Source: Planctomycetota bacterium | GTDB lineage: Bacteria; Planctomycetota; Phycisphaerae; Phycisphaerales; SM1A02 | DNA length: 46,801 nt | NCBI GenBank assembly: GCA_003671025.1 | Contig: QWPW01000007.1 | Location: 13,122-59,922 of the forward strand | Reading direction: 5' to 3' | Shown: in pieces, positions 17,043 to 37,472 of the stretch | How the letters are laid out: every line of letters starts with the position of its first letter | Numbering within the stretch: position 1 is the first letter of the stretch | Made by a program: the position numbers and the translations under genes | The notes under the pieces: generated by a model | Seen by the model: only the letters and a program-made list of their open reading frames with translations | Told to the model about the DNA's origin: nothing | Databases searched by the model: none

Positions 17043-17840
17043 TCAAGTTCCCAAAGAGCGGACAACGCGACCCCCCCACTGCGCCACGCTCGTTGAATGC
17101 GCGGGCAAGAATCGCTCGCCCACATCGGTGCGCACCACCAATCCGCGCATGGGATCGATTGAGCAAACCTCGCCCTCGACGGGGCCCGTGGGCGTGGCGA
17201 ACAACGCACGCGTTCCGCGCAGCGCATCGCGACGCAAGAACGCGGCGATCAGAGTTTCGTCGGACGAGCCGAGCGCTCGGTCGAGCGACGTCAGCAATAC
17301 GCACAGCACATCCAATCGATCGATGACGCTTCCCAGCATCGACAAACTTGTTGCGCGCGACTCCAACTCGCCCTCGAAGCGCGCCTGCATGACATTGATG
17401 CCGATGCCGATGAACGCGCGATTCTCTCGCGTCTCAATCAACACCCCCGCAAGCTTCTGTCCCGCAACCACGATGTCGTTGGGCCACTTGATGCCGACGG
17501 TGGTGATCGCGCCAGCATTGCTCAGCGCATGCTCACATGTCTCCGCGGCGGCGATGGCGCTAGCGAGCGCAAGACGTTCCGCTGCTTGCGTGTGCACGAC
17601 GAATGTCGCGGCCACACCCGCGGAGGCGGTGTCTTCCCACGCGCGACCAAATCGGCCTCTTCCCGCGGTTTGACGCCATGTTGCGATCACCGAGCCTGCG
17701 CGCGCGTCGCGAGTTTGCGGCGCGTCTTGTGTTGACGGAGTCTCCGCGAGAGTGAATGCGTGACGAAAGTTTTCGCTCGCGTGACACGCCGCTTCGAGAC
17801 GCGACTGCCAGTGATCGAATGTCACGCGCGGCATGTTCAT
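17043..17840 (-). CDS. birA: biotin--[acetyl-CoA-carboxylase] ligase
   Basis: A 265-aa enzyme that activates biotin with ATP and attaches it to the carboxyl-carrier protein of biotin-dependent carboxylases. The biotin-loop motif is read as RQTAGRGRFGRAW, and the catalytic core continues with IKWPNDIVVAGQKLAGVLIE and GIGINV, all hallmarks of the BPL_LplA fold. There is no N-terminal helix-turn-helix, so it is a mono-functional ligase and not the repressor type. Its start overlaps the nadC stop by four bases (ATGA), so the two are translationally coupled. Confidence 0.93.
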   Translation of the reverse strand: MNMPRVTFDHWQSRLEAACHASENFRHAFTLAETPSTQDAPQTRDARAGSVIATWRQTAGRGRFGRAWEDTASAGVAATFVVHTQAAERLALASAIAAAETCEHALSNAGAITTVGIKWPNDIVVAGQKLAGVLIETRENRAFIGIGINVMQARFEGELESRATSLSMLGSVIDRLDVLCVLLTSLDRALGSSDETLIAAFLRRDALRGTRALFATPTGPVEGEVCSIDPMRGLVVRTDVGERFLPAHSTSVAQWGGRVVRSLGT

Positions 17841-18841
17841 GAAGACGCTCGCTGCGAATCGTTGTGCGAGTTCGGCTCATGCCCGTGCTCAGGATCAAGA
17901 TCAAGTCCAAGGTCGAGTGCCGGCGCCGAATGGGTGATCGCGCCCACCGAAATGCGATCAACTCCGCACTCGGCGATGCGACGAACGGTGTCGAGACGCA
18001 CGCCACCCGATGCTTCGAGCAACACATGCGCCGCGCGCGCGTCTCTGCGTTTCACGGCCTCCGTAAGCAGTTCCACATTCATGTTGTCGAGGAGAATCAT
18101 GTCGAGCACGCCGCGCTCGAGCGTCAGCAGCGCATCGAGTTGTTCGAGCGAATCAACTTCGCACTGCACAAACGCGACATGATTTCCGCTGCGTGCACGC
18201 AGAGCGGCGAGTCGCACGCGCTCGACGAGGGTGCCGCTGGAGAACGCGGCGAGATGATTGTCTTTGAGCAGCACCGCATCGAAAAGCCCGATGCGATGAA
18301 GCGTCGCACCAGCGCAGCGCGTGGTGTATTTTTGCAGCGTGCGCAAGCCCGGCACGGTCTTGCGCGTGTCGGTGATCTGCGCCTTCGTCCCGCGCACCGC
18401 ATCGACAAACTGCGCGGCGAGCGTCGCGTTTCCAGATAGCAATGTCAGAAAGTTGAGCATCGTGCGCTCATGCGCGAGCAGTGCGCGCAGCGAACCTTCG
18501 ATCGTCGCGATGCGCGTTCCTCGCGACACACGTGCGCCGTCATCGAGATGGGTGGTGATCGAAAGTTGCGCGCGTTGCGCGACGATTTCCGCAACGCGCA
18601 GCCCCGCGATCACCCCGTCGCCACGACTATGAATGGTCGCGCGGCCTTGCGTGTCCGCAGCGATGCACGCGTTGCTAGTGAGATCGCCAACGCTCGAAAG
18701 ATCTTCGTCAAGCGCGCGCGTGACCAGCGCCTCGGCGTCGACGCGCGCAAGTTTGTCGAAGAGCGTGCGCAAGTCCAGCGCATTCCAATCCGCAGGCAAC
18801 GCGATTGGCGCCGCGTTGTCGTTTGTCGCGCGCGTGTTCAT
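17837..18841 (-). CDS. nadC: nicotinate-nucleotide diphosphorylase (carboxylating)
   Basis: A 334-aa quinolinate phosphoribosyltransferase of NAD synthesis; it converts quinolinate and PRPP to nicotinate mononucleotide. Diagnostic stretches include ALDEDLSSVGDLTS, the NFLTLLSGNATLAA helix, the TRKTVPGLRTLQKYT loop and LKDNHLA, and the C-terminal LLEASGGVRLDTV. The start at 18841 overlaps the HIT gene stop as ATGA and drops 24 residues of out-of-family leader. The protein has a slightly long N-terminus, about 30 residues before the first conserved helix, and an acidic, His-containing tail (DLGLDLDPEHGHEPN). Confidence 0.95.
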   Translation of the reverse strand: MNTRATNDNAAPIALPADWNALDLRTLFDKLARVDAEALVTRALDEDLSSVGDLTSNACIAADTQGRATIHSRGDGVIAGLRVAEIVAQRAQLSITTHLDDGARVSRGTRIATIEGSLRALLAHERTMLNFLTLLSGNATLAAQFVDAVRGTKAQITDTRKTVPGLRTLQKYTTRCAGATLHRIGLFDAVLLKDNHLAAFSSGTLVERVRLAALRARSGNHVAFVQCEVDSLEQLDALLTLERGVLDMILLDNMNVELLTEAVKRRDARAAHVLLEASGGVRLDTVRRIAECGVDRISVGAITHSAPALDLGLDLDPEHGHEPNSHNDSQRASS

Positions 18842-19248
18842 TGCGCGAGTGCTGCCTGCATCTTGGTCACGAGAACTTTCGCGCGTTCGTTGTCGAGCGT
18901 GCCCGCATTCCACGTAAACGCAAGCCCAGACGAATCGAAGCGCGGCACGATGTGAAAATGCACGTGCATCACTGCTTGATGCGCCAGTGCCCCGTTGTTT
19001 TGCAGGATGTTGTAGGCCGTCGCGCCAGTCGCCGCGAGCACCGCACGAGCGACGCGAGGAAGCGCGCGCCCTAACGCCGCGGCACTCTCATCAGACAACT
19101 GATGCATCTGCGCTTTCGCTTCTTTGGGAATGACCAACACGTGTCCGTCGCTGAGCGGACCGACATCAAGGAACGCGAGTACGAACTCGTCTTCGTAGAC
19201 GCGATGACATGGAATAGTGCCCGCGAGGATCTTGGCGAAGACAGTCAT
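18838..19248 (-). CDS. HIT family nucleotide-binding protein
   Basis: A 136-aa histidine-triad protein (HINT/Fhit-like hydrolase of nucleoside phosphoramidates or dinucleotides). The active-site motif HVHFHIV is present near residue 100, preceded by the family's FAKILAGTIPCHRVYED opening and DGHVLVIPKE strand. The start at 19248 (MTVFAKILAG) matches the family N-terminus; the upstream ten residues are untypical. Its stop overlaps nadC by four bases, giving a HIT-nadC-birA unit. The physiological substrate is not evident. Confidence 0.92.
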   Translation of the reverse strand: MTVFAKILAGTIPCHRVYEDEFVLAFLDVGPLSDGHVLVIPKEAKAQMHQLSDESAAALGRALPRVARAVLAATGATAYNILQNNGALAHQAVMHVHFHIVPRFDSSGLAFTWNAGTLDNERAKVLVTKMQAALAQ

Positions 19249-19373
19249 GCGCAGGCGAGTGTACTCAGTGTGCTGCACTGGTTGGACTGCGAAGGTGCGA
19301 GCGAGTCACGCTCATTACATCCATCGCCGCAACCATCCACACTGCGTTGCGAGATCACCGCGCGCGCCAAAAG

Positions 19374-20705
19374 TTACGGGAAAACCCCGCGCAATTGATA
19401 GATTTTCCCGATGCGCTCGAGGCTCGCGCAAATCGCCGCAGTGCGCAAGTCGCACTCGTAGCGCGCGCGCGCGACGCGCACTCGTCGCGCGGCAAGGGTC
19501 ATCTGACGACGAATGTGGGTTTCAATGTCGTCCTTGCGGAACGACGGATCATGACGCACATCGCGCCATTCCAACGCGCTCGCGACATCGCCCCCTGCGC
19601 ACGCGAGCACGTCGGGAATGATCTCGGCGCCTTGTCGAATGAGGATTTCTTCGGCCTCGGCCGAAACATTGGCGTCGCCCGCTTCGACCACCACGCGCGC
19701 GCGGCAGAGTGGAGCGCGCTTCGCATCGAGCACCGCGTCATCTGCGCACACCACGAGTACGTCGCTCGGCGCGTCCCAAAAATCTCGCTCCAGCACCGAA
19801 GTTGCAGTATCAAATCCATCGATGCCGCCCGTGCGCGCACGATGCTGCGCCAAGGCAATGACGTCGATCCCGCCGGACTCATAGAGCGCGCAACCCGAAC
19901 TCATCACCGCCGTCACGCGCGCACCACGCGCGGCCAACGCTTTCGCGAGCGCGCTTCCCGCGTGTCCAAATCCAAGCAGTGAAACGCGGGCCGCTTCGAT
20001 CTCGATGCCCATGTCTTCGAGAAGTTCATCGAGCACCGCGATCACACCCGTGGCATGCAGTCGCGCGCGAGAGACCAACCCGCCCAACTCCACAGGTTTG
20101 CCCATGACAGTTCGCGACTGGTCTTGTCGCGTAGGTTCGGGAGTCGTCTGCGCCAGCGTGTCGAGAAACCACGCCATCACTTGACTGTCCGCGCCAGCAT
20201 CGGGCGAAACGACGTCATAGGCCGGACCGAGTTGATGGCTGATCGCGCTGCAAAAGCGGCGAGTCACACGCATGAGTTCGTCGTTGGAGAGTTCGCGCGG
20301 ACTCACCTTCACCCCACCGAACGCGCCGCCAAAGGCAATACGCACGAGCGAAGCGCGCAACGTCGCCAACATGGCGTGACCCTTAATCGTGTCGAGTGAA
20401 AGTCGCGGCGCGTAGCGGATTCCGCCGAGATATGGCCCCAACGCATTCGAGTGCTGCACCCGATAGCCCTTGAACAATCGATGGCGCCCGTCATCCATCT
20501 GCACGGGAAACTGCACCATCACTTCACTCTTGGGTTGCGCGAGGATGATTTGTTGGTGATGACGCAATCCCACCATATCTGCCGCGCGCAGCAAGCATTC
20601 CGCCGTCTCGTGGAAGAGATTGCGCGGCTGAGGCGCGATTCCGATCTCTTCGAAGATCCGTGCTGCTGCGGGGCGATCGGTTCGTGTGACGCTTGAGCGT
20701 TCCAT
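19374..20705 (-). CDS. glutamate-dehydrogenase homologue lacking the catalytic lysine
   Basis: A 443-aa member of the Glu/Leu/Phe/Val dehydrogenase family by overall match: VQFPVQMDDGRHRLFKGYR, LGGIRYAP, SPDAGADSQVMAW, and the Rossmann loop GFGHAGSALAKAL. Key residues differ. The catalytic Lys of GGAKGG or GGGKGG is Phe (GGAFGG, residue 129), the substrate-binding Lys of the preceding helix is Arg (TLRAS, residue 117), and GGSxGR is GGLVSR. Only the first substrate Lys (residue 108) and the Asp after SP are kept. The frame is intact, so it is a conserved-looking pseudoenzyme or an enzyme with altered chemistry, not a decayed gene. An ATG at 20735 is an alternative start; the intervening bases are AT-rich and look untranslated. 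It may share a transcript with HIT-nadC-birA. Confidence 0.85.
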   Translation of the reverse strand: MERSSVTRTDRPAAARIFEEIGIAPQPRNLFHETAECLLRAADMVGLRHHQQIILAQPKSEVMVQFPVQMDDGRHRLFKGYRVQHSNALGPYLGGIRYAPRLSLDTIKGHAMLATLRASLVRIAFGGAFGGVKVSPRELSNDELMRVTRRFCSAISHQLGPAYDVVSPDAGADSQVMAWFLDTLAQTTPEPTRQDQSRTVMGKPVELGGLVSRARLHATGVIAVLDELLEDMGIEIEAARVSLLGFGHAGSALAKALAARGARVTAVMSSGCALYESGGIDVIALAQHRARTGGIDGFDTATSVLERDFWDAPSDVLVVCADDAVLDAKRAPLCRARVVVEAGDANVSAEAEEILIRQGAEIIPDVLACAGGDVASALEWRDVRHDPSFRKDDIETHIRRQMTLAARRVRVARARYECDLRTAAICASLERIGKIYQLRGVFP

Positions 20706-20902: not shown

Positions 20903-21856
20903 TTACTTCACAAACTTCACGCGACCCCACCAACGCGGATCATGCATGTCGATCTGCCATTGCGGCGTCCACACCCAATTGTCTTCGGGTTTGCCTTTGA
21001 TCTTCTCGTACTTAGGCGCGGTGTTTTGTTCGACGGGCGGCGGAGTTTGATCGAAGCTGTCGTTGATCGGAGGCGCGATCGGTTTCGCGGCGGTGGTGCC
21101 TTCGAAATTGTGCGTCCATTGCACGCGTGAAAAATTGACGCGCCACTCTTGGTTGACCGCGGGCGCCGCTGCGGCGCGCTCTTTTTCGCCAAATCCTGGC
21201 TTGTCCCACGCTGGTGGTGTGAACGCACTCCACGGAATCGCCCACTCCAATGTCCAACTAGTGTCGCGGTCACGCGGATCATCAAGCGTGCCATTGATGT
21301 GCACGGCAGTCTTCAGTCCCTGCGCGTTCCATCCATGTTCGGCTGGTCCCGCCTCTTTGTAGCGACGATGCAAGAAGAGATCGAAGATCGTCTTCACCGC
21401 GTTCACTTCGAGTTCGTAGTACTCGCGCGTGTCGCCATCGGGATCGATGAACACTTCGAAGTCGTTGTCTTGAAAAACGATTTCGTCGTGCTTGGTGAGC
21501 GTGGCCCAAACATGCGGCTCGATCAACTCGGCCGCGATGTAGAAGTACTGCGCATCCCAAACCATCTTCACGCGCGTGCGATAGCGCGGCGTAGGAAGCT
21601 TTGGGCCTTGGATGTCGACGAAATCGTCAGTCCATGCCGCAGTGGCCCACGCGCCATCATCAAGCTTGCCATCGAGCGTTGGAGCGATGGTCACAAACTT
21701 GCATTCATACGAACGCGGCAAGTACTCGGGCGTCTGCGCGGTGGCTTCACCAGCGGGCAACTGCGCGGGCGCGGGTGGAGTCGCAACGGAATTCTGCCAA
21801 CAGGCCACAAGAGCGATGGTGGTGAGCAAGGTCATAGGCGGAAACGGTACTTGCAT
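20903..21856 (-). CDS. secreted CBM9-like protein
   Basis: A 317-aa protein with a signal sequence ending near a Cys (MTLLTTIALVAC), so possibly a lipoprotein. Residues from about 55 match the carbohydrate-binding module family 9-like fold: PTLDGKLDDGAWATAAW, VKMVWDAQYFYIAAEL, QDNDFEVFIDPDGD and EWRVNFSRVQW. This fold is common in planctomycete and Bacteroidetes exported proteins that bind sugars or act in polysaccharide use. No catalytic domain is attached. The start at 21856 removes 15 basic residues that precede the signal; an ATG at 21835 is also possible. It diverges from the NRPS gene across 192 bases. Confidence 0.82.
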   Translation of the reverse strand: MQVPFPPMTLLTTIALVACWQNSVATPPAPAQLPAGEATAQTPEYLPRSYECKFVTIAPTLDGKLDDGAWATAAWTDDFVDIQGPKLPTPRYRTRVKMVWDAQYFYIAAELIEPHVWATLTKHDEIVFQDNDFEVFIDPDGDTREYYELEVNAVKTIFDLFLHRRYKEAGPAEHGWNAQGLKTAVHINGTLDDPRDRDTSWTLEWAIPWSAFTPPAWDKPGFGEKERAAAAPAVNQEWRVNFSRVQWTHNFEGTTAAKPIAPPINDSFDQTPPPVEQNTAPKYEKIKGKPEDNWVWTPQWQIDMHDPRWWGRVKFVK

Positions 21857-21942
21857 GAGCGATCGACGACGAAGCCTCGGTCGCGCCGCCGCGCAATTCA
21901 TCGAGAATTCATGGCAGTTTCAGCGACTGCACGGGCGCTCGG

Positions 21943-21972
21943 TTGCCTCGATCGAACCCGCGAATTCATACT
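21943..21972 (+). promoter_or_regulatory. candidate sigma-70-type promoter of the NRPS gene
   Basis: TTGCCT (21943-21948) and CATACT (21967-21972) are spaced by 18 bases, each matching four of six consensus positions. Transcription would start near 21979, downstream of an in-frame ATG at 21911, which supports 22049 as the NRPS start. Planctomycete promoters are poorly defined, so this is only a candidate. Confidence 0.3.
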
Positions 21973-22048
21973 GATCTCTCCCAACTCCGATCCTGCGTTG
22001 CACTTGACCGATGCCTCCGAGCGCGCGAGCATCGTGGATCGAGGAACC

Positions 22049-25000
22049 ATGCAATTCAATCTCACGGCAACGCAGCGCAGCGCACTCAATCATGCACTCT
22101 CGGCACACGCTCCTGATCACCATGTTTTGGTGCATCAACTCAGCGGCGCAATCGACATCGCCCGTTGGCGGCGCGCAGAGGTGGCGCTAGCGAAGAGTTG
22201 CGCGCTCTTCCGCCGCAGCTACTTGCCGGGTGATGAAGGTTGGCTCATCGTCGAGCCGCCGTTTGTGGATGGCGGCGATACCTCGAGTGCTCTCGCGGTC
22301 TTTGATCTGTCGAGGGCACCTGCGGGAACCTCGCTCAGTTTGGTTGAAGAACTTGTCTCGCGCAGGTTTCATCCCGAAGAAGCGCCGCTCGTTCGTCTCT
22401 CGCTCGTGCTCGAAGCGGGCGGTGGATTTTTGGTCATCACTGCCGCGTCGTTTGCGATGGATCGGTTTTCGCTGCGGCCGTTGGTGAGTGCACTGACACG
22501 TGCCTACGCCGGCGAAGAGCTGAGCGAAATCGTGCTTGCGCAACCGAAGCTGTTGCAACACGAGACCGAGTATCTCGCGTCACCTAAGCAACAAGCGGAC
22601 AAGCAGTTTTGGATGCGATTGCTCGCGGCCGCTCGCTTCTCGTGGCAACCCGCGAAGTGGAGCGACGCGACCTCGCCCACATTCTGGTCGAGTTCACTTT
22701 CGTCGCAAAGCACAACGCGGTTGAGTGAGTTGGCCGCGACGTTGCAAATGAATCTGCAGGAACTGCTGCTGTTTTCGTTTCACTTATTCCTGTGCAAACT
22801 CACTGGCGATGAAAATATTCTCACCGCGTCGGGTCACCGCGTCGGCTCTGACGCAGACACCGGCGTTGGCATTGGCTACTGCCAACAACGCGCTCTCTTG
22901 CCGAGTCACATTGAACGTGCGACATCCGTGCGCGACTTTCTCGTGGCGAGCAAGCGACTCGTCGAGTACGGACGCTTTCACGCGGGAATCCCTCGAGGCG
23001 AAGTCATTCGCGAACTGCAGAAGAAGGACCCCTCGCTGCTTCGACTCACCAATGTGACGTTTGAAGAGGACCTCCTGCCCTACGGCGTGTTGCGCGCCGA
23101 TGGATTGACCATCACGCTGTTGCCCGCACACTCGGGCGGCGTGGATATCTCTGACATCGCGGTCACGGTGACTCACGATGAAGCGCAGCAACAAGCGCTG
23201 CGCTTCAACATCAGCGTGCGCAATCCCCAGCACGCTGCTGCGATCGCTGCGGCGTTCCCCAGTTACTTCGATCTGCTCAACAATCTTCCCGACGCGCTCG
23301 ATGGCACGGTCGGCGAACTCTCGCTGTTGAGTGATGCGACCCGCGCACAAGCGCTCGCGCAAAGTTGCGGCGATGTGCTTTCGTCTCCACCGCGCAGCGT
23401 GCTTGATCGATTCAACGACATGGTCGCGCAGACTCCCGATGCGCCGGCCCTGCGCTGCGGCGACGAGACGTACACCTACGCGCAACTCTCGCACGCGGCC
23501 GACAAAGTTGCAGCGACGATTCTGCCACTGTTGAGCAACGATCAAGAGTCGCTCATCGGCATTTGCATGACGCGTGGCACCGCGATGATTGTGTCGCTGC
23601 TTGGCGTGCTCAAGAGTGGCGCTGGATATCTGCCGCTCGATCCGGCCAATCCCTCGGAGCGTTTGTCGTTCATTCTCGGCGACGCGGGCGCGCGCGCGGT
23701 TCTCGTGGATAGCAAGACTGTTGATATCGCCACACAAGCCGCGACGGCAACGAGCAACCTTCCCAGCGTGTTGCGAATCGAAGAAATTCTGCAACGCCCA
23801 ATCGCGCAAATGCCGCGGTTTCCTGCGCAAATCTCATCGTCCGTCGCCTATGTGATCTACACCTCAGGCACAACTGGCAAGCCCAAGGGAGTTGTCGTCG
23901 AGCGCGGTAATGCGGCGTTGTTTGTCCAAGCAAGTGAAGCGGCGCTCGGATGCGGTTTGGGAAATCGCTGGCTGCAATTTGCCTCGCTCAATTTTGATGC
24001 ATCGGTGTTGGAGATCTTCAACTGCCTCACGCGAGGTGCGGAACTCGTCGTGGCTGCGAGCGAAGTGCGCGCTGATCCCAAAGCTCTGTGGACGCTGCTG
24101 CATGATGCGAAGATTTCGCACGCATTCGTTCCTCCGGCGATGCTGCGCGTGTTGCCGCGACAGACGCTGCCTGATCTCGCCAACATTTATTGCGGCGGTG
24201 AAGCGAGCGACGACGCCACTGTCGCGTACTGGTCCAACTCAGTGCGACTATGGAATGTCTACGGCCCCACCGAGACCACCGTGTTGTGCTCGGCGAATCT
24301 GCTTGGTCCAGGACGCAGCGCTTCGAATCTCGGGCGACCGTTGCCCGGCTACACGATGTATGTGCTCGACGAGCGCGGCGAGCCAACGCCCACTGGTGGC
24401 GTTGGTGAAATCTTCATCGGCGGCGACGGCGTGACGCGCGGTTACTTCGGCAGACCCGAACTCACCGCCACGAAGTTCGTGCCCAATCCCTTTGGCGCGG
24501 GGCGGCTCTATCGCAGTGGCGATCTCGCGCGAAGACTTCCCGATGGCGAACTCGAATATCTCGGCCGCAACGATTTTCAAGTGAAAATCCGCGGGTTTCG
24601 CATCGAAATCGGCGACATTGAATCGGCGATTCGCGCCGTGGCCGGTGTGGGCGGCGTGCTGTGCACGGTGGTGAAAGGTCCAGGCGGAGCAACCCTCGCT
24701 GCGTGGTACACCTCAACAAGCACTGCAGAAGAAACCGTGCGTGACGCGATCTCGACGGTGCTGCCGCATTACATGGTGCCGACTCATCTGGTGCGACTTG
24801 ATTCGTTCCCCGTGAATATCAGTGGCAAGATTGATCGCTCCCGCTTGCTCATTCCTGATGCGAGTGAAGAGAGCACGCAGCAAGTACTCAACCCGTTGCA
24901 GCGACAAGTGCGCAGCGCGTGGGCCGACGCACTCAAGTGCAGCGCCGATGGACTGGGCACCGCGTCGCACTTCTTTCATCTCGGTGGCCACTCGCTCGCG

Positions 25001-28000
25001 GCATCGGTGGCGTGCGCCAAACTCTCGAACCAGTTGGGCATGAGCATTCGTCCCCGCACGCTGTTCGAGTTTCCTGTTCTTGCGGCGTTTTGCGAGCAAA
25101 TCGCGCACGCGCCGATATCAGTTGCGCTCGCGCCCATCGTTCGCACAGGCGAGAAGTGTGGACCGATCGTGGGCGCGCTCTCGTCGATGATGTGGAATCG
25201 CTCCGTGCAACGCGGCAGCGACAACACCTACACCATCGTGGTGCGCGTTGATCTTGATGCGCGCGTCAACCCGCAAACGCTTCGTCATGCTTTGCGCGCA
25301 GTCATCGCGTCCGATCCGATTTTCCGCAGCACGCTGCGCGAAAAGAACGCCCGACTTTGCATCGAAGAGCAAGATGCGACGGCGCCGTTGATCGCCATCG
25401 TCGATTGCACAGAGGCACAACGCGACGCGCGCATTGATGCCATGCGCTCTGTGGTGTTCGAGCTCGCCACCGCCCCGCTGTGGCGCGCCGAGATTCTGGT
25501 GTGCGACGATGATCGTTCCGTGCTGCTTTTTGCCGTGCATCACGCGATTTTCGATGGTTGGTCGCTCAACTTGTCGCTCGAACAATTGAGCGCGCAATAC
25601 GCCGCAGCGGTCAACGGCACATCGATGACGCGCACGACCGCCACCATGGTCGATTACGGAATTTGGTGCGAGTCTCCTTCGCATAAGGACGCGGTGAAAA
25701 CGTCGGTCCAGTACTGGAACAGCAAACTGCGCGGCGTGACTGCGCGCACCGAGTTGCCCATCACTTCATCGACGCGACGCGCCGATGCCAACGCGTGGTT
25801 GCCCGTTCGTGTCGCGCCCAAAGTTGTCGCGCAACTCAAGCGCCTCGCATCGGACCTCGATGTCACGCTGCCACCGGTCTTGTTTTCCGCCTATCTCGTG
25901 TGGCTGTGGCGCATCACTGGTCAACGCGAGTTGACCGTGTCCTATCCCTATGCGGGACGCGATGTGCCCGGCACCGATGAGATCTTCGGTCTCTTCGTCA
26001 CCATGGGATTTCTGCATCAGTCCATCGATGCAGACTCGAGTTTCGCCTCGTTGGTTCGGCACGTCGCTGCGCAGATGATTTCCGATCGCGAACATCTCGT
26101 CGCGTCGCCGTACGACACCGATCTCTCCGCAGTCGGCGTGCCCAACGTGCTGTTCAGTCTGCAATCAGGAATCAATCTCAGCGGCACGATTGGCGGCTAT
26201 CCCTTCGCCGCGCACGAGATTCCTTCGCGCACATCGAAGGCCGACATCGGCGGAATCTTCTATGAAACAGCGGACAACGCGATCGAAGGTCGCATCGAGT
26301 TCGATAGTTCGTTGCTCGACCCAACGTTGGTCACGGGGTTTCTTCGCTCACTCGAAGCGTTGATCGGCGCGGTTGCTCCCGCGTCCACGGGCACGCTCAT
26401 GGACTTGCCTTACTTGAGCGATGCCGAGCGCGCACTCATCACTGGAATGTCGACGGGGCCTGCGCTCGAGCCATGCGCGTTGACCATCGTGGAGAACTTC
26501 GCGCAAGTGGTGAAGGATCATCCGCAACGCATCGCCATGGAATGCAATGGTCGATCGTGGACCTACACGCAACTCGATCAAGCGACGGATCGCCTCGCCA
26601 GCGCACTCATTGCGCGTCATCACCCCGTGCCGCAGACCTTAGTGGGACTTTCGGTGAGCAAGAGTGGCGAGCTCATTCAAGGTGCGTTGGCGATTCTTAA
26701 GGCGGGATGCGCCTATGTGCCGCTTGATCCGCATTACCCGCCCGACCGTTTGCGCTACCTCATCGACGACAGCGGCGCGCGCTTGATCATCGCGGATGCG
26801 TCGAGCGCAGACGCTGTTCGTGCGACCGGCGCATCTGACTTGTCCTTCATCGATCCCTTTGACAGCGCACTCGAGCAACAACAAGTGCTTGCGTTTCCTC
26901 GCGTGAGGCCGAGTGATCTCGCCTATGTCATCTACACCTCGGGATCAACAGGCAAACCAAAAGGCGTGTTGGTCGAACATCACTCCGTGCCGCGTTTGAT
27001 GGCCGCGTCACGCCCTGCGATTTCGTTTACCTGCGCGGGACGCTTTGTTTTGCTGGGTACGCTCAACTTTGATGCCAGCGTGTTGCAAGTGTTCTTGCCC
27101 CTGCTCTCGGGCGGGACGCTGGTGGTTCCTCCGCCCAACATCGAGAAGGAACCAGACGCGCTCCATCAAATGCTTGATCAACAGCGCGTCACCCACGCGT
27201 TAGTCACGCCTTCACTCATTCGCAATTTTCCACGCCGACCATTGCCGCACATCGAAGTGCTCGGCTTCGGTGGTGAAGCGATTGACGCAGCATCGGCTGA
27301 GTACTGGTCCACGCAAACGCGCTTCTTCTCGATGTACGGCCCGACCGAAATCACGGTCATGTGCAGCGCGGGCGTGATCGCTCCGGGCAGTAATCCGCGC
27401 ATCATCGGACGACCGTTGCCGGGATACACGATGCATCTCCTCGATCGACAGATGCAGTTGGTTCCGTATGGCGCCGTCGGTGAAATCTTCATCGGCGGTG
27501 GTTGCGATGCGCGCGGATATCTCGGCAAGAACGAGCTCACTATGGATCGCTTCGTGCTCGATCCTTTCAGCGACTCGCCCTATGCGCGTTGCTATCGCAG
27601 CGGTGATCTCGGTCGATTTCTCAGCGACGGAACCATCGAGTACTTCGGGCGCAACGATGACCAGATCAAATTGCGCGGATTCCGCATTGAACTAGGTGAA
27701 GTTGAATCGGCGTTGCAACGCATCGATGGTGTGACCGAAGCTGCGGCGGCGGTGCGTGGCGAAGGCGACCTGCGCGCCATCGTCGGCTACTACACGTCGA
27801 ATTCAGGCGCGCCGCTTGATGAGGCCGCGGTGCGCAAGGCGTTGGCGGTGTTTCTCCCCGAGTACATGCTGCCGTCGTTTCTCGTGCATCTCGCCGCGTT
27901 TCCCCTCAATGCCAACGGCAAGCTCGATCGCAAGGCGCTGCCCGCAGTGTCGATGCGTTCACAATCAGGCGATCCTCCGCGCGCGGGACTCGAGAGCGAC

Positions 28001-29362
28001 ATCGCACAAGTGTGGGAAGAGTTACTGCGCTTCAAAGGTGTTGGGCGCGACGATGACTTCTTTCACTTGGGCGGAAACTCGCTGCTCGCGGCACGATTGC
28101 AAACACTCTTGCGCGAGCGGCTGCAACTGCAAGTGTCGATCGCAACGCTCTACGCCAAGCCGACAATTGCCGCGCTCGCCCATGCGACCGACGCGGGTTC
28201 CATCGCCGCTGCGATCGCGTGTGCGCGTGCGGGTGTTCGCCTCGATCATCCCATTGCGCAAGGCCCCGTCGCAGCAAACATGCAACATGCGCTACTCACG
28301 GGTGCCGCGGGTTTCCTCGGCATCTATCTGTTGCACGCGTTGCTGAGCAAGGCACAACTGGTGACGTGTCTGCTGCGCGGACGCGACGAAGCGACCGTGT
28401 TGAAGACGCTGCAATTGGCGGCGGAGAAATCGCAGCTCGACATCGACTGGAGTCGCGTTCGCGTGTTGCTCGGCGATCTTGGTGCCGCGAAACTCGCGCT
28501 CAGCGAAGATGTGTTGGGCGTGCTCGCAGAATCAATCGACACGATCGTGCACTGCGGCGCATGGGTTCATCATCGTTACTCCTACGCCACGCTCAAAGCC
28601 ACCAACGTTGATGCAACGGTTGAGTTGCTGCGCTTGGCGTTGCGCGGCAAGCGCAAGCGATTCTGTTTCGTCTCGACTGAATCAGTGGGTGACGCGATGG
28701 CCAACATCGATCACGTGAGCGAAGCAATCCTCGACATCGATGCCCATCCACCAATCAGCGAGGTGGGCTATCTGCTCACCAAGTGGACTGCCGAGCAGTT
28801 GGTCGCGGACGCGTCGCGCAAGTACGGCCTTCACGCGGTGATCGCGCGCGCAGGCAATATCACGGGCGATTCGCGCACGGGCTACAGCAACTTCGATCAC
28901 AACCACTTCTGGCTTTTCGCCAAGTGCTGCGTGCAATTGGGCGCGTATCCCGACATTCTCACGCGCGTGGAGATGACGCCGGTGGACTGTGTCGCCGCGA
29001 ATGTGGTGGGACTCACGTTGGCACCGCCGGACGGTTTGCGCGTGGCAAACCTGAGCAATCCGTTGGCAACAACGCTGCCTGAGTTTTTCGAGCACGTCGC
29101 GCGCGCGGGAAATTTCGCGACGCAACGCGACACCACGGCGCAGTGGCAAGAGAAGTTGGCGCACATCGATGAACACAACGCGTTGTGGCAGATTCGCGAT
29201 TTGTATGCAGGCGATCTCAGCGGCGAGCCCGTGGCGGTGGATCACCAAGAGACCACGCGTTGCCTCGCGGCCGCCGCTGTCCCACTCGCACCAGCGCCGA
29301 ACATCTTGATTCCCCGCTACGTGACTTACTTGCAGCACGAAGGATTTCTTCCGAGTGCGTGA
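22049..29362 (+). CDS. two-module nonribosomal peptide synthetase with terminal reductase (C-A-PCP-C-A-PCP-R)
   Basis: A 2,437-aa synthetase. Order by residue: C1 about 1-440; A1 about 450-940 (YTSGTTGKPKG at 604-614, NVYGPTETT, YRSGDLARRLPDGE, NISGKIDR); PCP1 with LGGHSL near 977; C2 about 1030-1460 with intact HHAIFDGWSL (H1164, H1165, D1169); A2 about 1477-1965 (YTSGSTGKPKG from 1629, MYGPTEIT, NANGKLDR); PCP2 with LGGNSL (Ser 2011); reductase about 2080-2437 (LLTGAAGFLG, VSTES, GYLLTK as the Tyr-Lys pair). C1 has ASFAMDR (residues 133-139) where HHxxxDG belongs. The chain is predicted to be a dipeptide released reductively as aldehyde or alcohol. The start has GAGG four bases upstream; the frame runs on upstream only antisense to the CBM9-like gene. 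A PPTase gene overlaps the 3' end. Confidence 0.95.
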   Translation: MQFNLTATQRSALNHALSAHAPDHHVLVHQLSGAIDIARWRRAEVALAKSCALFRRSYLPGDEGWLIVEPPFVDGGDTSSALAVFDLSRAPAGTSLSLVEELVSRRFHPEEAPLVRLSLVLEAGGGFLVITAASFAMDRFSLRPLVSALTRAYAGEELSEIVLAQPKLLQHETEYLASPKQQADKQFWMRLLAAARFSWQPAKWSDATSPTFWSSSLSSQSTTRLSELAATLQMNLQELLLFSFHLFLCKLTGDENILTASGHRVGSDADTGVGIGYCQQRALLPSHIERATSVRDFLVASKRLVEYGRFHAGIPRGEVIRELQKKDPSLLRLTNVTFEEDLLPYGVLRADGLTITLLPAHSGGVDISDIAVTVTHDEAQQQALRFNISVRNPQHAAAIAAAFPSYFDLLNNLPDALDGTVGELSLLSDATRAQALAQSCGDVLSSPPRSVLDRFNDMVAQTPDAPALRCGDETYTYAQLSHAADKVAATILPLLSNDQESLIGICMTRGTAMIVSLLGVLKSGAGYLPLDPANPSERLSFILGDAGARAVLVDSKTVDIATQAATATSNLPSVLRIEEILQRPIAQMPRFPAQISSSVAYVIYTSGTTGKPKGVVVERGNAALFVQASEAALGCGLGNRWLQFASLNFDASVLEIFNCLTRGAELVVAASEVRADPKALWTLLHDAKISHAFVPPAMLRVLPRQTLPDLANIYCGGEASDDATVAYWSNSVRLWNVYGPTETTVLCSANLLGPGRSASNLGRPLPGYTMYVLDERGEPTPTGGVGEIFIGGDGVTRGYFGRPELTATKFVPNPFGAGRLYRSGDLARRLPDGELEYLGRNDFQVKIRGFRIEIGDIESAIRAVAGVGGVLCTVVKGPGGATLAAWYTSTSTAEETVRDAISTVLPHYMVPTHLVRLDSFPVNISGKIDRSRLLIPDASEESTQQVLNPLQRQVRSAWADALKCSADGLGTASHFFHLGGHSLAASVACAKLSNQLGMSIRPRTLFEFPVLAAFCEQIAHAPISVALAPIVRTGEKCGPIVGALSSMMWNRSVQRGSDNTYTIVVRVDLDARVNPQTLRHALRAVIASDPIFRSTLREKNARLCIEEQDATAPLIAIVDCTEAQRDARIDAMRSVVFELATAPLWRAEILVCDDDRSVLLFAVHHAIFDGWSLNLSLEQLSAQYAAAVNGTSMTRTTATMVDYGIWCESPSHKDAVKTSVQYWNSKLRGVTARTELPITSSTRRADANAWLPVRVAPKVVAQLKRLASDLDVTLPPVLFSAYLVWLWRITGQRELTVSYPYAGRDVPGTDEIFGLFVTMGFLHQSIDADSSFASLVRHVAAQMISDREHLVASPYDTDLSAVGVPNVLFSLQSGINLSGTIGGYPFAAHEIPSRTSKADIGGIFYETADNAIEGRIEFDSSLLDPTLVTGFLRSLEALIGAVAPASTGTLMDLPYLSDAERALITGMSTGPALEPCALTIVENFAQVVKDHPQRIAMECNGRSWTYTQLDQATDRLASALIARHHPVPQTLVGLSVSKSGELIQGALAILKAGCAYVPLDPHYPPDRLRYLIDDSGARLIIADASSADAVRATGASDLSFIDPFDSALEQQQVLAFPRVRPSDLAYVIYTSGSTGKPKGVLVEHHSVPRLMAASRPAISFTCAGRFVLLGTLNFDASVLQVFLPLLSGGTLVVPPPNIEKEPDALHQMLDQQRVTHALVTPSLIRNFPRRPLPHIEVLGFGGEAIDAASAEYWSTQTRFFSMYGPTEITVMCSAGVIAPGSNPRIIGRPLPGYTMHLLDRQMQLVPYGAVGEIFIGGGCDARGYLGKNELTMDRFVLDPFSDSPYARCYRSGDLGRFLSDGTIEYFGRNDDQIKLRGFRIELGEVESALQRIDGVTEAAAAVRGEGDLRAIVGYYTSNSGAPLDEAAVRKALAVFLPEYMLPSFLVHLAAFPLNANGKLDRKALPAVSMRSQSGDPPRAGLESDIAQVWEELLRFKGVGRDDDFFHLGGNSLLAARLQTLLRERLQLQVSIATLYAKPTIAALAHATDAGSIAAAIACARAGVRLDHPIAQGPVAANMQHALLTGAAGFLGIYLLHALLSKAQLVTCLLRGRDEATVLKTLQLAAEKSQLDIDWSRVRVLLGDLGAAKLALSEDVLGVLAESIDTIVHCGAWVHHRYSYATLKATNVDATVELLRLALRGKRKRFCFVSTESVGDAMANIDHVSEAILDIDAHPPISEVGYLLTKWTAEQLVADASRKYGLHAVIARAGNITGDSRTGYSNFDHNHFWLFAKCCVQLGAYPDILTRVEMTPVDCVAANVVGLTLAPPDGLRVANLSNPLATTLPEFFEHVARAGNFATQRDTTAQWQEKLAHIDEHNALWQIRDLYAGDLSGEPVAVDHQETTRCLAAAAVPLAPAPNILIPRYVTYLQHEGFLPSA

Positions 29363-33076: not shown

Positions 33077-35860
33077 TCACGCGTTCAAGGCCGCTTGCGC
33101 CGCCGCAAGTCGCGCCACGGGAACGCGAAACGGCGAGCAGCTCACATAGTCAAGACCGCACTCGTGGAAGAAGGTGATCGACGCGGGGTCGCCACCATGC
33201 TCGCCGCAAACGCCCAGTTTGAAGGCCTTTTTCTGCTCTTCCGCAACTTCACGGCCCATGTCGCAGGCGAGCGCAACCAGCGTGCCCACGCCTGAAGTGT
33301 CGATCGACTGGAAGGGATCCTTCTCGAGCATTCCTTGCTCAAGGTAAGAAGGCAAGAACGATCCGATGTCGTCACGACTGAAACCAAACGTCATCTGCGT
33401 GAGATCGTTGGTGCCAAACGAGAAGAAGTCGGCGACTTCGCCAATCTCGTCCGCAGTCACTGCCGCGCGAGGAATCTCGATCATGGTGCCGATCGGAATA
33501 TTCAACCCGTTCTTGCCCGTCGCCTTCACGCCCTTCTCGACGCACACCTTGGCAATGGTTTGCTCAGTGAGCGCGCGCAGAAGAACGAGTTCCTTCTTGG
33601 TGCCGACCAACGGGTGCATGATCTCGGGACGTGCATCGATCTTGCGCGCGTTGCAGTCGATCGCCGCTTCAACGATGGCGCGAATCTGCATCTTGAGAAT
33701 CTCGGGATAGGTGATGGCCAAGCGACAACCACGGTGACCGAGCATCGGGTTCGCTTCATGAAGTTGCGAGACGCGTCGCTGCACGTGCTCGAGTGAAAGA
33801 CCCATTTCGCGCGCGAGTTCCGACTGCTGCTTCACGTCGTGCGGAACAAACTCGTGCAACGGTGGATCAAGCAAGCGAACGGTGACAGGGAACCCCGCCA
33901 TCGCGGTGAAGATGCCGATGAAATCTGCGCGTTGGAACGGCAGCAGTTTCGCGAGCGCCTTCTCGCGCGACTCGGTGGTCTCCGCGAGAATCATCTCGCG
34001 AATCGCTGCTGTGCGATCACCGCCGAAGAACATGTGCTCGGTGCGACAGAGGCCAATGCCCACTGCACCAAACTCGCGTGCGCGTCGCGCATCTTCAGGC
34101 GAATCGGCATTCGTGCGCACCTTCATCTCTGCATACTTGTTGGACCACTCCATGACCTTCGCGAAGTCGCCGGAGATCTTCTCGGGGATGGTGGCCTTCA
34201 CTGCGCCGACCATGACTTCGCCAGTTGCGCCATCGATGGAGAGCACATCGTCGCGGCCGAAAGTCCAACCCTTCACATGCACTTGACCCTTGACGGCGTC
34301 GATCGAAAGTTCGCCCGCGCCCACGACGCAGCACTTGCCCCAACCAACCGCAACAACTGCGGCGTGACTGGTCTTGCCACCGGTTGAAGTGAGAATGCCC
34401 ACCGCGCTGTGCATGCCCGCGACATCTTCAGGGCTCGTCTCTTTGCGCACCAACAGGACCTTCTCGCCGTTCTTCGCGCGCTCGACTGCTTCGGCCGCAG
34501 TGAACGCGAGCTTGCCCGTCGCTGCACCAGGACTCGCGCCGATTCCGCGCGTCACTGCCGCGGCACCTTTCTTGTCCGTGGTGGAGAAGAAGGGCAACAG
34601 CAACTGGGTGAGATCGCTCGCGGGAATGCGCTTGATCGCGGTCTTCTCGTCGATCAACTTCTCTTTGACCATCTCGACTGCAATGCGCACCGCCGCTTGC
34701 GCCGTGCGCTTGCCCGTGCGAGTTTGCAGCATGAAGAGTTTGCCGTTTTCCACGGTGAACTCGATGTCTTGCATGTCCTTGTAATGCTTCTCCAACTTCA
34801 CGCGCACCTTCATGAGATGTGCATACGCCTTAGGAAATTCGCGCGCCATTTCTGAGATCGGCTTCGGCGTGCGAATGCCTGCGACGACATCTTCACCCTG
34901 CGCATTCACCAAGAATTCGCCGTAGAAAACGTTTTCGCCGGTGGTGTTGTCGCGCGTGAACGCAACGCCAGTGCCCGAGTTGTCGCCCATGTTTCCGTAG
35001 GCCATCGCCTGCACGTTCACTGCGGTGCCGTTGATGCCCTTGATCTCTTGGATGCGGCGATACTCAATCGCGCGATCGCCGTTCCACGAACTGAACACTG
35101 CCTTGATCGAGTGCTCGAGTTGCAACATCGGGTCTTGCGGGAAGTCGCTGCCGACTTGCTCCTTGTAGACCTTCTTGTATTCCGCAACGAGCTCAATCAG
35201 ACCTTCTGTTGGAACGTCGGTGTCTTCCTTCACGCCGAACTTGGTCTTGATCGCGCTGAACGCATGCTCAAACTTGTGATGATCAACACCCATCACCACA
35301 TCGCCGAACATGTTGATCAAGCGTCGGTACGCGTCATACGCAAAGCGCGGATTTCCCGTGCCTTTCGCGAGTCCCTCAACAGCCTTGTCGGTGAGACCGA
35401 GGTTGAGCACGGTGTCCATCATGCCTGGCATCGACACTGCCGCGCCCGAACGCACCGAGACCAACAGCGGGTCTTTGTCGGAGCCGAACTTCTTGCCCGA
35501 CTCACGCTCGAGCATCTTGATGTTCTTGCGCACGTCATCCATCAAACCCTTGGGCAACTTGCCGCCGAGGGTGTAATAGTTCGCGCACGTGTCGGTGGTG
35601 ATGGTGAATCCCGGTGGAACGGGAAGCCCAATCGAAATCATGTCTGCGAGATTCGCACCCTTGCCGCCGAGCAACATCTTCTGCGACGCGTTGCCCTCAC
35701 ACTTAGTTTCGCCGAAGTAGAAGACCATCTTGCCGGACTTCGCGACGCTCGCGCTCTTGAGCGACTTGGTCTTTGGTGACTTGGTCTTCGGTGACTTGGT
35801 CTTCGCGTTCTTGGACTTCGATGACTTTTGCGCGGACTTCGCGGACTTCTTGCTCGCCAT
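33077..35860 (-). CDS. ppdK: pyruvate phosphate dikinase with basic SPKTK-rich N-terminal tail
   Basis: A 927-aa enzyme interconverting pyruvate, ATP and phosphate with phosphoenolpyruvate, AMP and pyrophosphate. The nucleotide-binding domain begins at KMVFYFGE with LLGGKGANLADM; the swivelling phosphohistidine is in GGKTSHAAVV at His 499, and the PEP domain ends with GVCGEHGGDP (Cys 885). Compared with the well-studied Clostridium symbiosum enzyme (His 455) the offset is 44 residues, exactly the length of an extra N-terminal tail made of Lys, Ser, Ala, Thr and Pro with three near-identical SPKTK-type units. Such a tail is not part of the family and resembles histone-H1-like basic segments. 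The start at 35860 has a weak ribosome site; the long upstream extension overlaps the pabB gene and is not real. Confidence 0.94.
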   Translation of the reverse strand: MASKKSAKSAQKSSKSKNAKTKSPKTKSPKTKSLKSASVAKSGKMVFYFGETKCEGNASQKMLLGGKGANLADMISIGLPVPPGFTITTDTCANYYTLGGKLPKGLMDDVRKNIKMLERESGKKFGSDKDPLLVSVRSGAAVSMPGMMDTVLNLGLTDKAVEGLAKGTGNPRFAYDAYRRLINMFGDVVMGVDHHKFEHAFSAIKTKFGVKEDTDVPTEGLIELVAEYKKVYKEQVGSDFPQDPMLQLEHSIKAVFSSWNGDRAIEYRRIQEIKGINGTAVNVQAMAYGNMGDNSGTGVAFTRDNTTGENVFYGEFLVNAQGEDVVAGIRTPKPISEMAREFPKAYAHLMKVRVKLEKHYKDMQDIEFTVENGKLFMLQTRTGKRTAQAAVRIAVEMVKEKLIDEKTAIKRIPASDLTQLLLPFFSTTDKKGAAAVTRGIGASPGAATGKLAFTAAEAVERAKNGEKVLLVRKETSPEDVAGMHSAVGILTSTGGKTSHAAVVAVGWGKCCVVGAGELSIDAVKGQVHVKGWTFGRDDVLSIDGATGEVMVGAVKATIPEKISGDFAKVMEWSNKYAEMKVRTNADSPEDARRAREFGAVGIGLCRTEHMFFGGDRTAAIREMILAETTESREKALAKLLPFQRADFIGIFTAMAGFPVTVRLLDPPLHEFVPHDVKQQSELAREMGLSLEHVQRRVSQLHEANPMLGHRGCRLAITYPEILKMQIRAIVEAAIDCNARKIDARPEIMHPLVGTKKELVLLRALTEQTIAKVCVEKGVKATGKNGLNIPIGTMIEIPRAAVTADEIGEVADFFSFGTNDLTQMTFGFSRDDIGSFLPSYLEQGMLEKDPFQSIDTSGVGTLVALACDMGREVAEEQKKAFKLGVCGEHGGDPASITFFHECGLDYVSCSPFRVPVARLAAAQAALNA
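35760..35804 (-). repeat. 15-bp tandem repeat coding the SPKTK units
   Basis: Three head-to-tail 15-bp units at 35760-35774, 35775-35789 and 35790-35804; the last two are identical and the first differs at a few positions. They encode the TKSPK-like repeats of the ppdK tail and keep the frame. Confidence 0.85.
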
Positions 35861-36032
35861 GGTGTGAGTGCTTTCGGGTGGTGTGCGTGCGCGGACTCTT
35901 CGGGCCGCGGTGAATCGTCGAGTGTACAACCGCTTCAAGTGCGCGCAATCGCTGTGATTCATTGGGCGCGCGCGAAGGTGTCGCAGTGTGTCAAGACGAT
36001 CATTTGCTCGAAAGCGAGTGCAAGCAAACCCG

Positions 36033-37472
36033 ATGCTCGTCGTACGATCACGCCTCCTCGTGGCACTGGTCTCAACCATCAACGCATCCGCCCACCGCGA
36101 GTCTGCACTCGCGGCCGATGTGTTGTTGCGTTGGCCTGCAGATGAGCCACTCGCAGCACTGGTTTCGGGAGGCGCCAACAACGCGCAGAACACATGGTCG
36201 ATCTTCGCGCGTCCTCGCAAGACCGTCACCATCGCTGGTGACATCGCTCCACATGAAGCGCTGCAACAACTCAATGATGCGCTGGCCACGACACCGCGCG
36301 TGTTGGATTCGAACTCATGCGATCCTCACGGCATGCACGATGGCGCGCCTCCATTTGCGGGCGGATGGGTTGTCGCGTTGGGATACGAACTCGGCGCGTG
36401 CTTCGAACCGCGCGCGCAGCACATCGCGCGAGTGAGTAACCATCCGCGTGCGGTGCTGCATTGGTGCCCCGATGCGTGGTGCCTCAATCACGCGACGGGT
36501 GCGTTGCACGCAGTCGGTGCGCCGCCTGCGTTGGCATCAGATGAACAACGCGACGCATGGCAACTCGACGCGGTCCACGCATGCACCAGCGATGCGCAGT
36601 ACGGCGAACTTGTCGCACGAACGGTGGAACACATCCATGCAGGTGATGCGTTTCAAGCGAGCATCGCGCGACGCTTTGAAGCATCGCTCACCGGAAGCGC
36701 ACGCGCGTTTGCACACGCGGCCATCACAGAAAATCGCGCATGGTTTGGCGCGTTGATCGAACTTCCATGTGGTGGCGCGGTGATCTCGATGAGTCCCGAA
36801 CTTTTCTTGCGCGTGCGCCGTGACGGTTCGGTGGTCACGCGACCGATCAAGGGCACGAGACCACACACGGTCTGCAGCGGTGAACTCATCGACAGCGAAA
36901 AAGATGCCGCAGAACTCGCGATGATTGTCGACCTCATGCGCAACGACCTCGGGCGCGTCGCAGAGATTGGATCAGTCGCCGTCACCCAAAGTCGCGTGTT
37001 GGAAACACATCGCACCGTGCATCATGGTGTCGCCGAAATTTATGCACAGCTGCGCGACGATGTTTCGTGGATGGACCTGCTGCGCGCGACATTTCCGCCG
37101 GGCTCAGTGACGGGAGCGCCGAAAGTTCGCGCGATGCAAATCATCGATGAACTCGAGAACGCGCCGCGCGGGTTTTACTGTGGCGCGATCGGCTTCATCT
37201 CACACAACGGTGAAGCGGCGTTGAACGTGGCGATTCGCACGGCGCAGGTTTCTGCGCTCCGAGACGATGGTTCGCGTGTACTTCACTATCACGCAGGATG
37301 CGGCATCGTGGCGCAAAGTGAAGTCGCCTCGGAAATCGCTGAGTCGCATGCGAAGACGCGCGCGCTGGTGCAGCTCTCGCGCGACGATCTTGCGCTCACG
37401 CCGCGCGAAGATCTTGCGCTCACGCCGCGCGGCGATCTTGCGCTCACGCCGCGCGGCGATGCGAGTCGGTGA
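36033..37472 (+). CDS. pabB: aminodeoxychorismate synthase component I
   Basis: A 479-aa chorismate-binding enzyme that makes 4-amino-4-deoxychorismate for folate. The diagnostic lysine of PabB is present in PIKGTRPH, where anthranilate synthase TrpE has Ala (PIAGT), so PabB is preferred. Other motifs: DLMRNDLGRVAEIG, HHGVAEIYAQL, PPGSVTGAPKVRAM and YHAGCGIVAQSE. No glutaminase subunit (pabA) is in the window. The C-terminus after the conserved SHAKTRAL helix is an unusual tail of three DLALTPR units coded by a 24-bp tandem repeat. Start at 36033; an upstream in-frame ATG at 35988 would add basic residues. The last 29 bases overlap the convergent PilZ-like gene. Confidence 0.92.
   Translation: MLVVRSRLLVALVSTINASAHRESALAADVLLRWPADEPLAALVSGGANNAQNTWSIFARPRKTVTIAGDIAPHEALQQLNDALATTPRVLDSNSCDPHGMHDGAPPFAGGWVVALGYELGACFEPRAQHIARVSNHPRAVLHWCPDAWCLNHATGALHAVGAPPALASDEQRDAWQLDAVHACTSDAQYGELVARTVEHIHAGDAFQASIARRFEASLTGSARAFAHAAITENRAWFGALIELPCGGAVISMSPELFLRVRRDGSVVTRPIKGTRPHTVCSGELIDSEKDAAELAMIVDLMRNDLGRVAEIGSVAVTQSRVLETHRTVHHGVAEIYAQLRDDVSWMDLLRATFPPGSVTGAPKVRAMQIIDELENAPRGFYCGAIGFISHNGEAALNVAIRTAQVSALRDDGSRVLHYHAGCGIVAQSEVASEIAESHAKTRALVQLSRDDLALTPREDLALTPRGDLALTPRGDASR
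37386..37457 (+). repeat. 24-bp tandem repeat in the pabB 3' end
   Basis: Three 24-bp units at 37386-37409, 37410-37433 and 37434-37457, starting GATCTTGCGCTCACGCCGCG; units two and three are identical and unit one differs in its last triplet. The frame is kept. The stop codon of the convergent PilZ-like gene (37444-37446) lies inside the third unit. Confidence 0.93.

Follow-up and report, generated by a model that had tools for sequence, protein, structure and literature searches.

The window, by which we mean the whole stretch of 46,801 nucleotides analysed here, carries on its minus strand a gene for a homologue of glutamate dehydrogenase (GDH), hereafter the pseudo-GDH. It lies in a block with genes for a HIT-domain protein, nadC, a biotin/lipoate protein ligase-like protein, a CBM9-like protein and, at a greater distance, a PPDK-like protein (Table 1). 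The reading frame can be opened at either of two ATG codons, and the MER(S/T)xVT start of most relatives in the genus aligns with the second, which gives the 443-aa protein. Residues are numbered here on the 453-aa protein.

Table 1. Features of the window at and around the pseudo-GDH gene; g1 is the genus of the window, g17 its sister genus, and the canonical set and the clade are described in the text.
Feature	Position	Strand	Remarks
Biotin/lipoate protein ligase-like gene	17043..17840	-	End of conserved block (locus comparison)
nadC (quinolinate phosphoribosyltransferase)	17837..18913	-	Neighbour annotation
HIT-domain protein gene	18838..19278	-	Next gene downstream; same strand as pseudo-GDH in 7/10 clade genera
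Pseudo-GDH gene	19374..20705	-	443 aa from start conserved in relatives; 453 aa from 20735
RGVFP C-terminus	19377..19391	-	Match to C-terminal part of leucine site (PMC9570180); kept in window
C379	19599..19601	-	In place of Asn of NAGG (NAD site); alignment
S279	19899..19901	-	In place of Asp after second strand of NAD fold; alignment
GFGHAG	19956..19973	-	Glycine-rich dinucleotide-fold loop, kept; alignment
H227	20055..20057	-	Thr position; Thr in 0/34 clade rows, 29/30 other rows
D192	20160..20162	-	Match to leucine-site Asp (PMC9570180); kept in 34/34 clade rows
D179	20199..20201	-	Equivalent of the catalytic Asp of APDVGT; D in window, E in 8/15 rows of g1 + g17
R159 R160	20256..20261	-	One of them matches leucine-site Arg (PMC9570180); kept in 34/34 clade rows
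F139 (GGAFGG), codon TTC	20319..20321	-	Catalytic Lys position; F in 15/15 rows (g1 + g17), K in 27/27 canonical
R127 (ATLRAS)	20355..20357	-	Second active-site Lys position; R in 15/15 rows (g1 + g17), K in 27/27 canonical
L103 (GPYLGG)	20427..20429	-	First active-site Lys (GPxKGG) position; L 13, H 1, M 1 of 15 rows (g1 + g17), K in 27/27 canonical
CBM9-like protein gene	20903..21901	-	Upstream neighbour in most of clade (locus comparison)
NRPS	21950..29362	+	Two AMP-binding, two condensation and two carrier stretches; terminal reductase-like NAD_binding_4
PPDK-like gene	33077..36289	-	Upstream of GDH in seven other clade genera

The open reading frame is intact, as had been read from the letters alone, and both Pfam GDH domains are matched from end to end (PF02812 with 140.9 bits and PF00208 with 128 bits). 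The closest PDB relatives by sequence are GDHs. The NCBIfam GDH equivalogs (GdhB_Halo, GdhA_Arch, PRK09414) were missed at their cut-off, the best match reaching 262 bits against 620. All three active-site lysines are replaced, by L in GPYLGG, by R in ATLRAS and by F in GGAFGG. The sequence-only reading had correctly noticed the last two, at its residues 117 and 129 (R127 and F139 here), and had missed the first. The protein thus has neither the catalytic lysine of GG(A/G)KGG nor the substrate-carboxylate lysines (GPxKGG; TxK) that mark an ELFV dehydrogenase. We take L103, R127, F139 and D179 to be the equivalents of K89, K113, K125 and D165 of Clostridium symbiosum GDH.

The rows of g1 and g17 were compared with a canonical set of 27 rows that keep the catalytic residues, from which L033 (a long branch) and L017 and L078 (Lys lost) are left out. 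The claim that the NAD-binding loop is intact held for the GxGxxG motif, but D279, N258 and N379, which we take to be NAD-site positions, are invariant in the canonical rows and replaced in all 15 rows of g1 and g17. In the GDH mechanism it is the lysine that drives catalysis. As the catalytic Lys is gone, the Asp is variable and the NAD-site residues are gone, GDH chemistry is very unlikely. A sequencing error at the lysine positions was ruled out, since R127 and F139 are common to the 15 aligned rows, which come from 15 different genomes.

The first search matched the window protein in 49 of 61 genomes. In the genus of the window, an orthologue was found in 11 of 16 genomes, its own included, and the other ten are 72–79% identical to the window protein. 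The orthologues of g17 are 60–61% identical and carry the same R and F (4/4). In a scan of named assemblies, the best 80 of 220 relatives comprise 38 with the three lysines and the aspartate (K/K/K/D) and 42 that have lost one or more of them; 11 of these 42 are changed in the manner of the window, but they come from genomes already counted and so are not independent. The named assemblies with these genes bear clashing taxon labels (Candidatus Kuenenia, Limnohabitans, Singulisphaera, Bacteroidia), yet they group by sequence. This group of Planctomycetota is known from metagenomes, and isolate names (Erken and Baikal, for example) point to lakes. Among GDHs from other Planctomycetota families, 64 of 65 are K/K/K/D, in a non-random set of 25 best-scoring phylum-wide loci and 40 hand-chosen ones (some two per genome, and four from order-level genomes that are also in the tree); the exception is L242, with L/K/Q/D. 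In the open-licence full-text library searched, we saw no earlier account of such a clade, nor of a comparable pseudo-GDH other than Thermus GdhA.

The gene order PPDK, CBM9 protein, GDH, HIT, nadC and biotin ligase can be followed, with gaps, through the clade described below, and PPDK, GDH, HIT, nadC and ligase stand in that order at the canonical loci of g58, g45 and g49 too. The HIT gene follows the GDH on the same strand in g1, g17, g18, g41, g6, g50 and g62, and is inverted in g60, g2, g55 and the three canonical loci. The CBM9 gene is on the opposite strand in g17 and was not found in g2. PPDK was not found in the stretches of g1 except the window, nor in g50 or g62 (a short contig), and in the window the NRPS gene and other genes lie between it and the CBM9 gene. 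The scan gave no promoter-like site, with 1.0 expected, and four terminator-like sites, with 4.6 expected.

Co-transcription with nadC had been suggested from the sequence. A same-strand nadC is indeed nearby, but a HIT-family gene stands between, and the linkage predates the catalytic loss. In addition, nadC was not found in the block of the four g17 and three g41 loci checked, where the pseudo-GDH is present; two g41 genomes (G068 and G073) have nadC elsewhere. That nadC is close by therefore tells little about function, and we dropped it as a functional clue because it is ancestral and not universal. The gene order common to the canonical genera indicates that the pseudo-GDH is the syntenic orthologue of a working enzyme that was changed in place, and it rules out a horizontal gain or paralogy.

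The tree was made from 64 orthologues of the family and the order, with duplicate rows left out. It places 34 rows from ten genera on one side of a branch, with a support of 98/94 for all columns and of 97/96 after deletion of the 63 columns that surround the active and NAD sites, and the order-level outgroups sit across this branch. All 34 rows are without Lys125, Asp165 or both (C. symbiosum numbering). Lys125 is replaced by F in g1, g17 and g6, by A in g18, g2 and g41, by M in g50 and by C in g62; g60 has Y at this position together with Gly for Asp165, and g55 keeps Lys125 with Gly for Asp165. In the g55 rows (for example L079 and L041), the three lysines are kept and GPGVGTD holds the Gly in 7 of 7 aligned rows. 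The most stripped members of the clade are g1 and g17, and the first two lysines are kept in the other eight genera. By hand count of the ten clade genera, 67 genomes carry a small GDH, with a single match in 66 and a second match in G139; their Lys/Asp status was read in the 34 aligned rows and the named loci belonging there.

At least eight residue changes at Lys125 and at least six at Asp165 are needed on the 64-row tree, and a label for Lys125 kept or lost requires three changes. A tree constrained to unite all Lys-less rows in a single clade is 28 log-likelihood units worse (AU p 0.065). A single loss of Lys125 is thus not formally rejected, and what the tree supports is one clade in which Lys125 or Asp165 is lost. 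Outside this clade, rows of g9 (L017 of G023, GGSSGA) and g42 (L078 of G084, GGGAGA) have S and A for Lys125, possibly by a separate, perhaps independent, or unplaced event; L078 is incomplete. Position 227 of the canonical enzymes presumably acts through its Thr on the nicotinamide side of the cofactor, and the founding change may have been made there, by loss of Thr227, after which Lys and Asp would have gone by different routes.

The AlphaFold2 model of the window protein, made from a 53-row alignment, has a mean pLDDT of 90.4. The 50 Foldseek matches listed were all GDHs or complexes with one, with 3aoe_A first by E-value and TM-scores of up to 0.87 when normalised by query length. PMC9570180 describes a leucine site in Thermus and bovine GDH, made up of an Arg, an Asp and C-terminal residues. 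The Arg would be R159 or R160 in the window protein, as the printed number and the alignment count are off by one at the Asp. Among the clade rows that reach the C-terminus, R449, G450 and P453 are kept in 33 of 33 and F452 in 31 of 33. In the 27 canonical rows, R449 is found in 23, and R159/R160, D192, G450, F452 and P453 are invariant. Apart from R449, these residues are thus not specific to the clade, and structural constraint may explain why they are kept. They would be compatible with effector binding, which they do not prove, and nucleotide binding could also persist since GxGxxG is retained.

The conservation of the protein is uneven. There are 126 columns invariant in the canonical set, of which 63 are kept in all rows of g1 and g17 with a residue there (15 rows per column, or 14 near the C-terminus). 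The oligomerisation part keeps 44 of 67 such columns, and the NAD domain (residues 201–394) keeps 19 of 59 (Fisher p 0.0003). The divergence of the NAD domain relative to the oligomerisation domain has a median of 1.75 within g1 and of 1.85 for g1 against g17, with 1.33 and 1.09 in two canonical sets, 1.33 in g17, 1.33 in the set of g41, g18, g2, g62 and g6, 1.40 in g55 and 1.14 in g60; the medians omit L014 of g1, which is cut by a contig end, and pairs at least 97% identical in the oligomerisation domain. The contrast between the domains is therefore clear only for g1 and for g1 versus g17, the other clade sets giving 1.14–1.40. The better conservation of the oligomerisation domain suggests that the job is done by the assembled protein.

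The replaced residues may instead belong to an enzyme that has turned to another substrate, in which R127, R223 and D179 or E179 would form a new site and a nucleotide would be bound at GxGxxG. All 15 rows of two genera that are only about 60% identical have R127 and F139, so that the new residues are themselves conserved, and R223 and GxGxxG are kept in all 34 clade rows. On the other hand, the clade varies at residue 179 (D 14, E 11, G 9) and at residue 139 (F, A, M, Y, C or K), the NAD domain of g1 drifts faster than the rest, and none of the new invariants listed for g1 and g17 is common to the whole clade. New chemistry, which the sequence-only reading had offered as one option, is thus disfavoured, and we regard it as quite unlikely.

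Decay of a superfluous gene was also weighed. In this explanation the large GDH of the genome, described below, took over, and the conservation merely reflects a recent loss of constraint. It would fit with the several ways in which the active site was lost, with the partly relaxed NAD domain of g1 and with the absence of the gene beside intact neighbours in a few genomes. The GDH gene is gone from a g55 genome (G134) in which CBM9 and the nadC/HIT region are still there; in G004 of g1, HIT and nadC are present and about 9.7 kb upstream shows no trace of it, and in G002 of g1 none was found in the 0.7 kb of contig beyond HIT. The contig of G012 ends too early for a call, and G003 and G007 yielded no nadC. 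The losses beside intact neighbours mean that the pseudo-GDH is not essential everywhere.

However, the gene shows none of the features of a pseudogene (stops, frameshifts or a dN/dS near 1), and no internal stop was found among the clade matches listed. The NG86 median dN/dS was 0.11 in g1 (55 pairs), 0.05 in g17 (6), 0.06 in g55 (21) and 0.12 in g41 (3), and single pairs gave 0.06 in g18, 0.10 in g6 and 0.30 in g60; these values are rough because synonymous change comes close to saturation in several groups (dS about 1.4 in g1). The canonical medians were 0.11 in g45, 0.11 in g47, 0.19 in g61 and 0.38 in the order set. The pseudo-GDH is conserved at least as well as nadC in the genus, where nadC is 61–71% identical to that of the window (8 loci), and the clade covers ten genera. 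We therefore consider slow decay very unlikely, the conservation arguing against it. The gene is kept by purifying selection, which acts most strongly on the oligomerisation domain, and most groups measured show signs of such selection.

The assembly of the window, which is 95.9% complete, has two other PF00208 proteins. One is a leucine/tryptophan-dehydrogenase-like protein with GGAKSV, and the other is a large GDH of 880 aa, the Lys of which lines up with the one in mycobacterial GDH180. A second GDH of the hexameric type was not found in this assembly, so that a canonical GDH elsewhere in the genome, considered in the sequence-only reading, did not turn up and the sole other GDH found is of the different, large class. 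The large GDH is present in 16 of 16 genus members, including the five without a pseudo-GDH match, and in 63 of the 67 genomes with a small GDH by the same hand count (G129, G139, G150 and G192 are without it). Both the large and the small GDH seem to be inherited vertically.

The best match of PF01645 (glutamate synthase) in this assembly has 22 bits over 40 of 369 positions, with a Pfam cut-off of 20.4; the best in the ten clade genera has about 30 bits, and other genera of the family reach 55 to 295 bits. We take these weak matches to be other proteins, and glutamate synthase is probably absent. Glutamine synthetase has one match in the assembly, in an 802-aa frame. With no strong glutamate synthase match and this one match, the large GDH, which presumably carries the GDH activity, may be the sole route of ammonium assimilation.

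The protein may be a regulatory partner of another GDH, as suggested earlier, but a hetero-hexamer of the Thermus type looks unavailable. A regulatory subunit that joins a catalytic small GDH in mixed hexamers is highly improbable. It has a precedent in Thermus GdhA (PMC9570180), and a tandem pair of a canonical and a Lys-less gene does occur in the planctomycete G292, but this assembly yielded no second GDH of this type and 66 of the 67 clade-genus genomes have one small-GDH match only.

Taken together, the loss of three lysines, the change of D to E in 8 of 15 rows, the lost NAD-site residues and the purifying selection agree with the pseudoenzyme that had been proposed from the sequence. 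Judged from these comparisons, the protein very probably has no GDH activity and the gene is kept for another role. The explanation that we favour is a pseudoenzyme that still folds as a GDH but has lost its catalysis, and that arose in place from the normal hexameric GDH of the family; taken as a whole, with the way of working given next, this explanation has about an even chance of being right. For its way of working, we tentatively favour a regulatory hexamer, which would bind an effector at the retained inter-subunit site and act by binding another protein, and we hold this to be somewhat less probable than its opposite. The homo-hexamer would still assemble, its substrate pocket being plugged by Phe and Leu, and an effector at the leucine-type site would change its shape. 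The best candidates for the bound protein would be the large GDH and the adjacent HIT protein, and it is quite doubtful that the large GDH is the target.

In its widest form, the proposal would be that the only hexameric GDH of the clade became a stand-alone, non-catalytic sensor of amino-acid or nucleotide supply. It might work with the nucleotide-binding HIT protein and might govern the entry of nitrogen by way of the large GDH, in cells where no glutamate synthase was found, its active site having been dismantled by several routes after a founding change on the nicotinamide side. This whole scheme is unlikely to hold in all its parts. The lysines of GDH are treated as fixed in textbooks, and here a graded series is seen at one orthologous gene, which runs from intact sites through Asp-less and Lys-less forms to fully stripped ones. 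The lineage makes it possible to test directly how an enzyme can turn into a non-enzyme when no gene duplication is involved, and what the GDH hexamer does beyond catalysis. Annotation by homology would assign to these bacteria a GDH reaction of which this protein is probably incapable.

The canonical hexameric NAD(P)-GDHs (T. maritima 1B26, B. thailandensis 4XGI and plant 8S38) have the same full-length fold as the window protein at about 33% identity, but the window protein is without their three Lys, T227 and the NAD-site D279, N258 and N379. GudB1 and RocG of Bacillus subtilis (3K8Z, 3K92) also match its fold. They are GDH homologues with known non-catalytic or gated roles, and they keep the catalytic residues. 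PMC9570180 describes Thermus thermophilus GdhA as a catalytically inactive regulatory subunit. This protein, seen with GdhB in PDB 3AOE, is a GDH homologue of the same fold as the window protein; 3AOE chains are among the Foldseek matches, chain A being GdhB. Thermus GdhA works in a mixed hexamer with the active GdhB, whereas no catalytic homologue of that type was found in the assembly of the window. The tandem pair of G292 (contig C62), from another Planctomycetota family, consists of L199 with K/K/K/D followed by L242 with L/K/Q/D, an arrangement that recalls Thermus gdhAB. L242 is also without two Lys (GPYLGG, GGSQGG) and is 34% identical to the window protein, but it adjoins an intact GDH. 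Mycobacterial GDH180 (7A1D) is a relative of the large GDH of this genome, which keeps its Lys; its class differs, and it is kin to the pseudo-GDH by the superfamily fold only.
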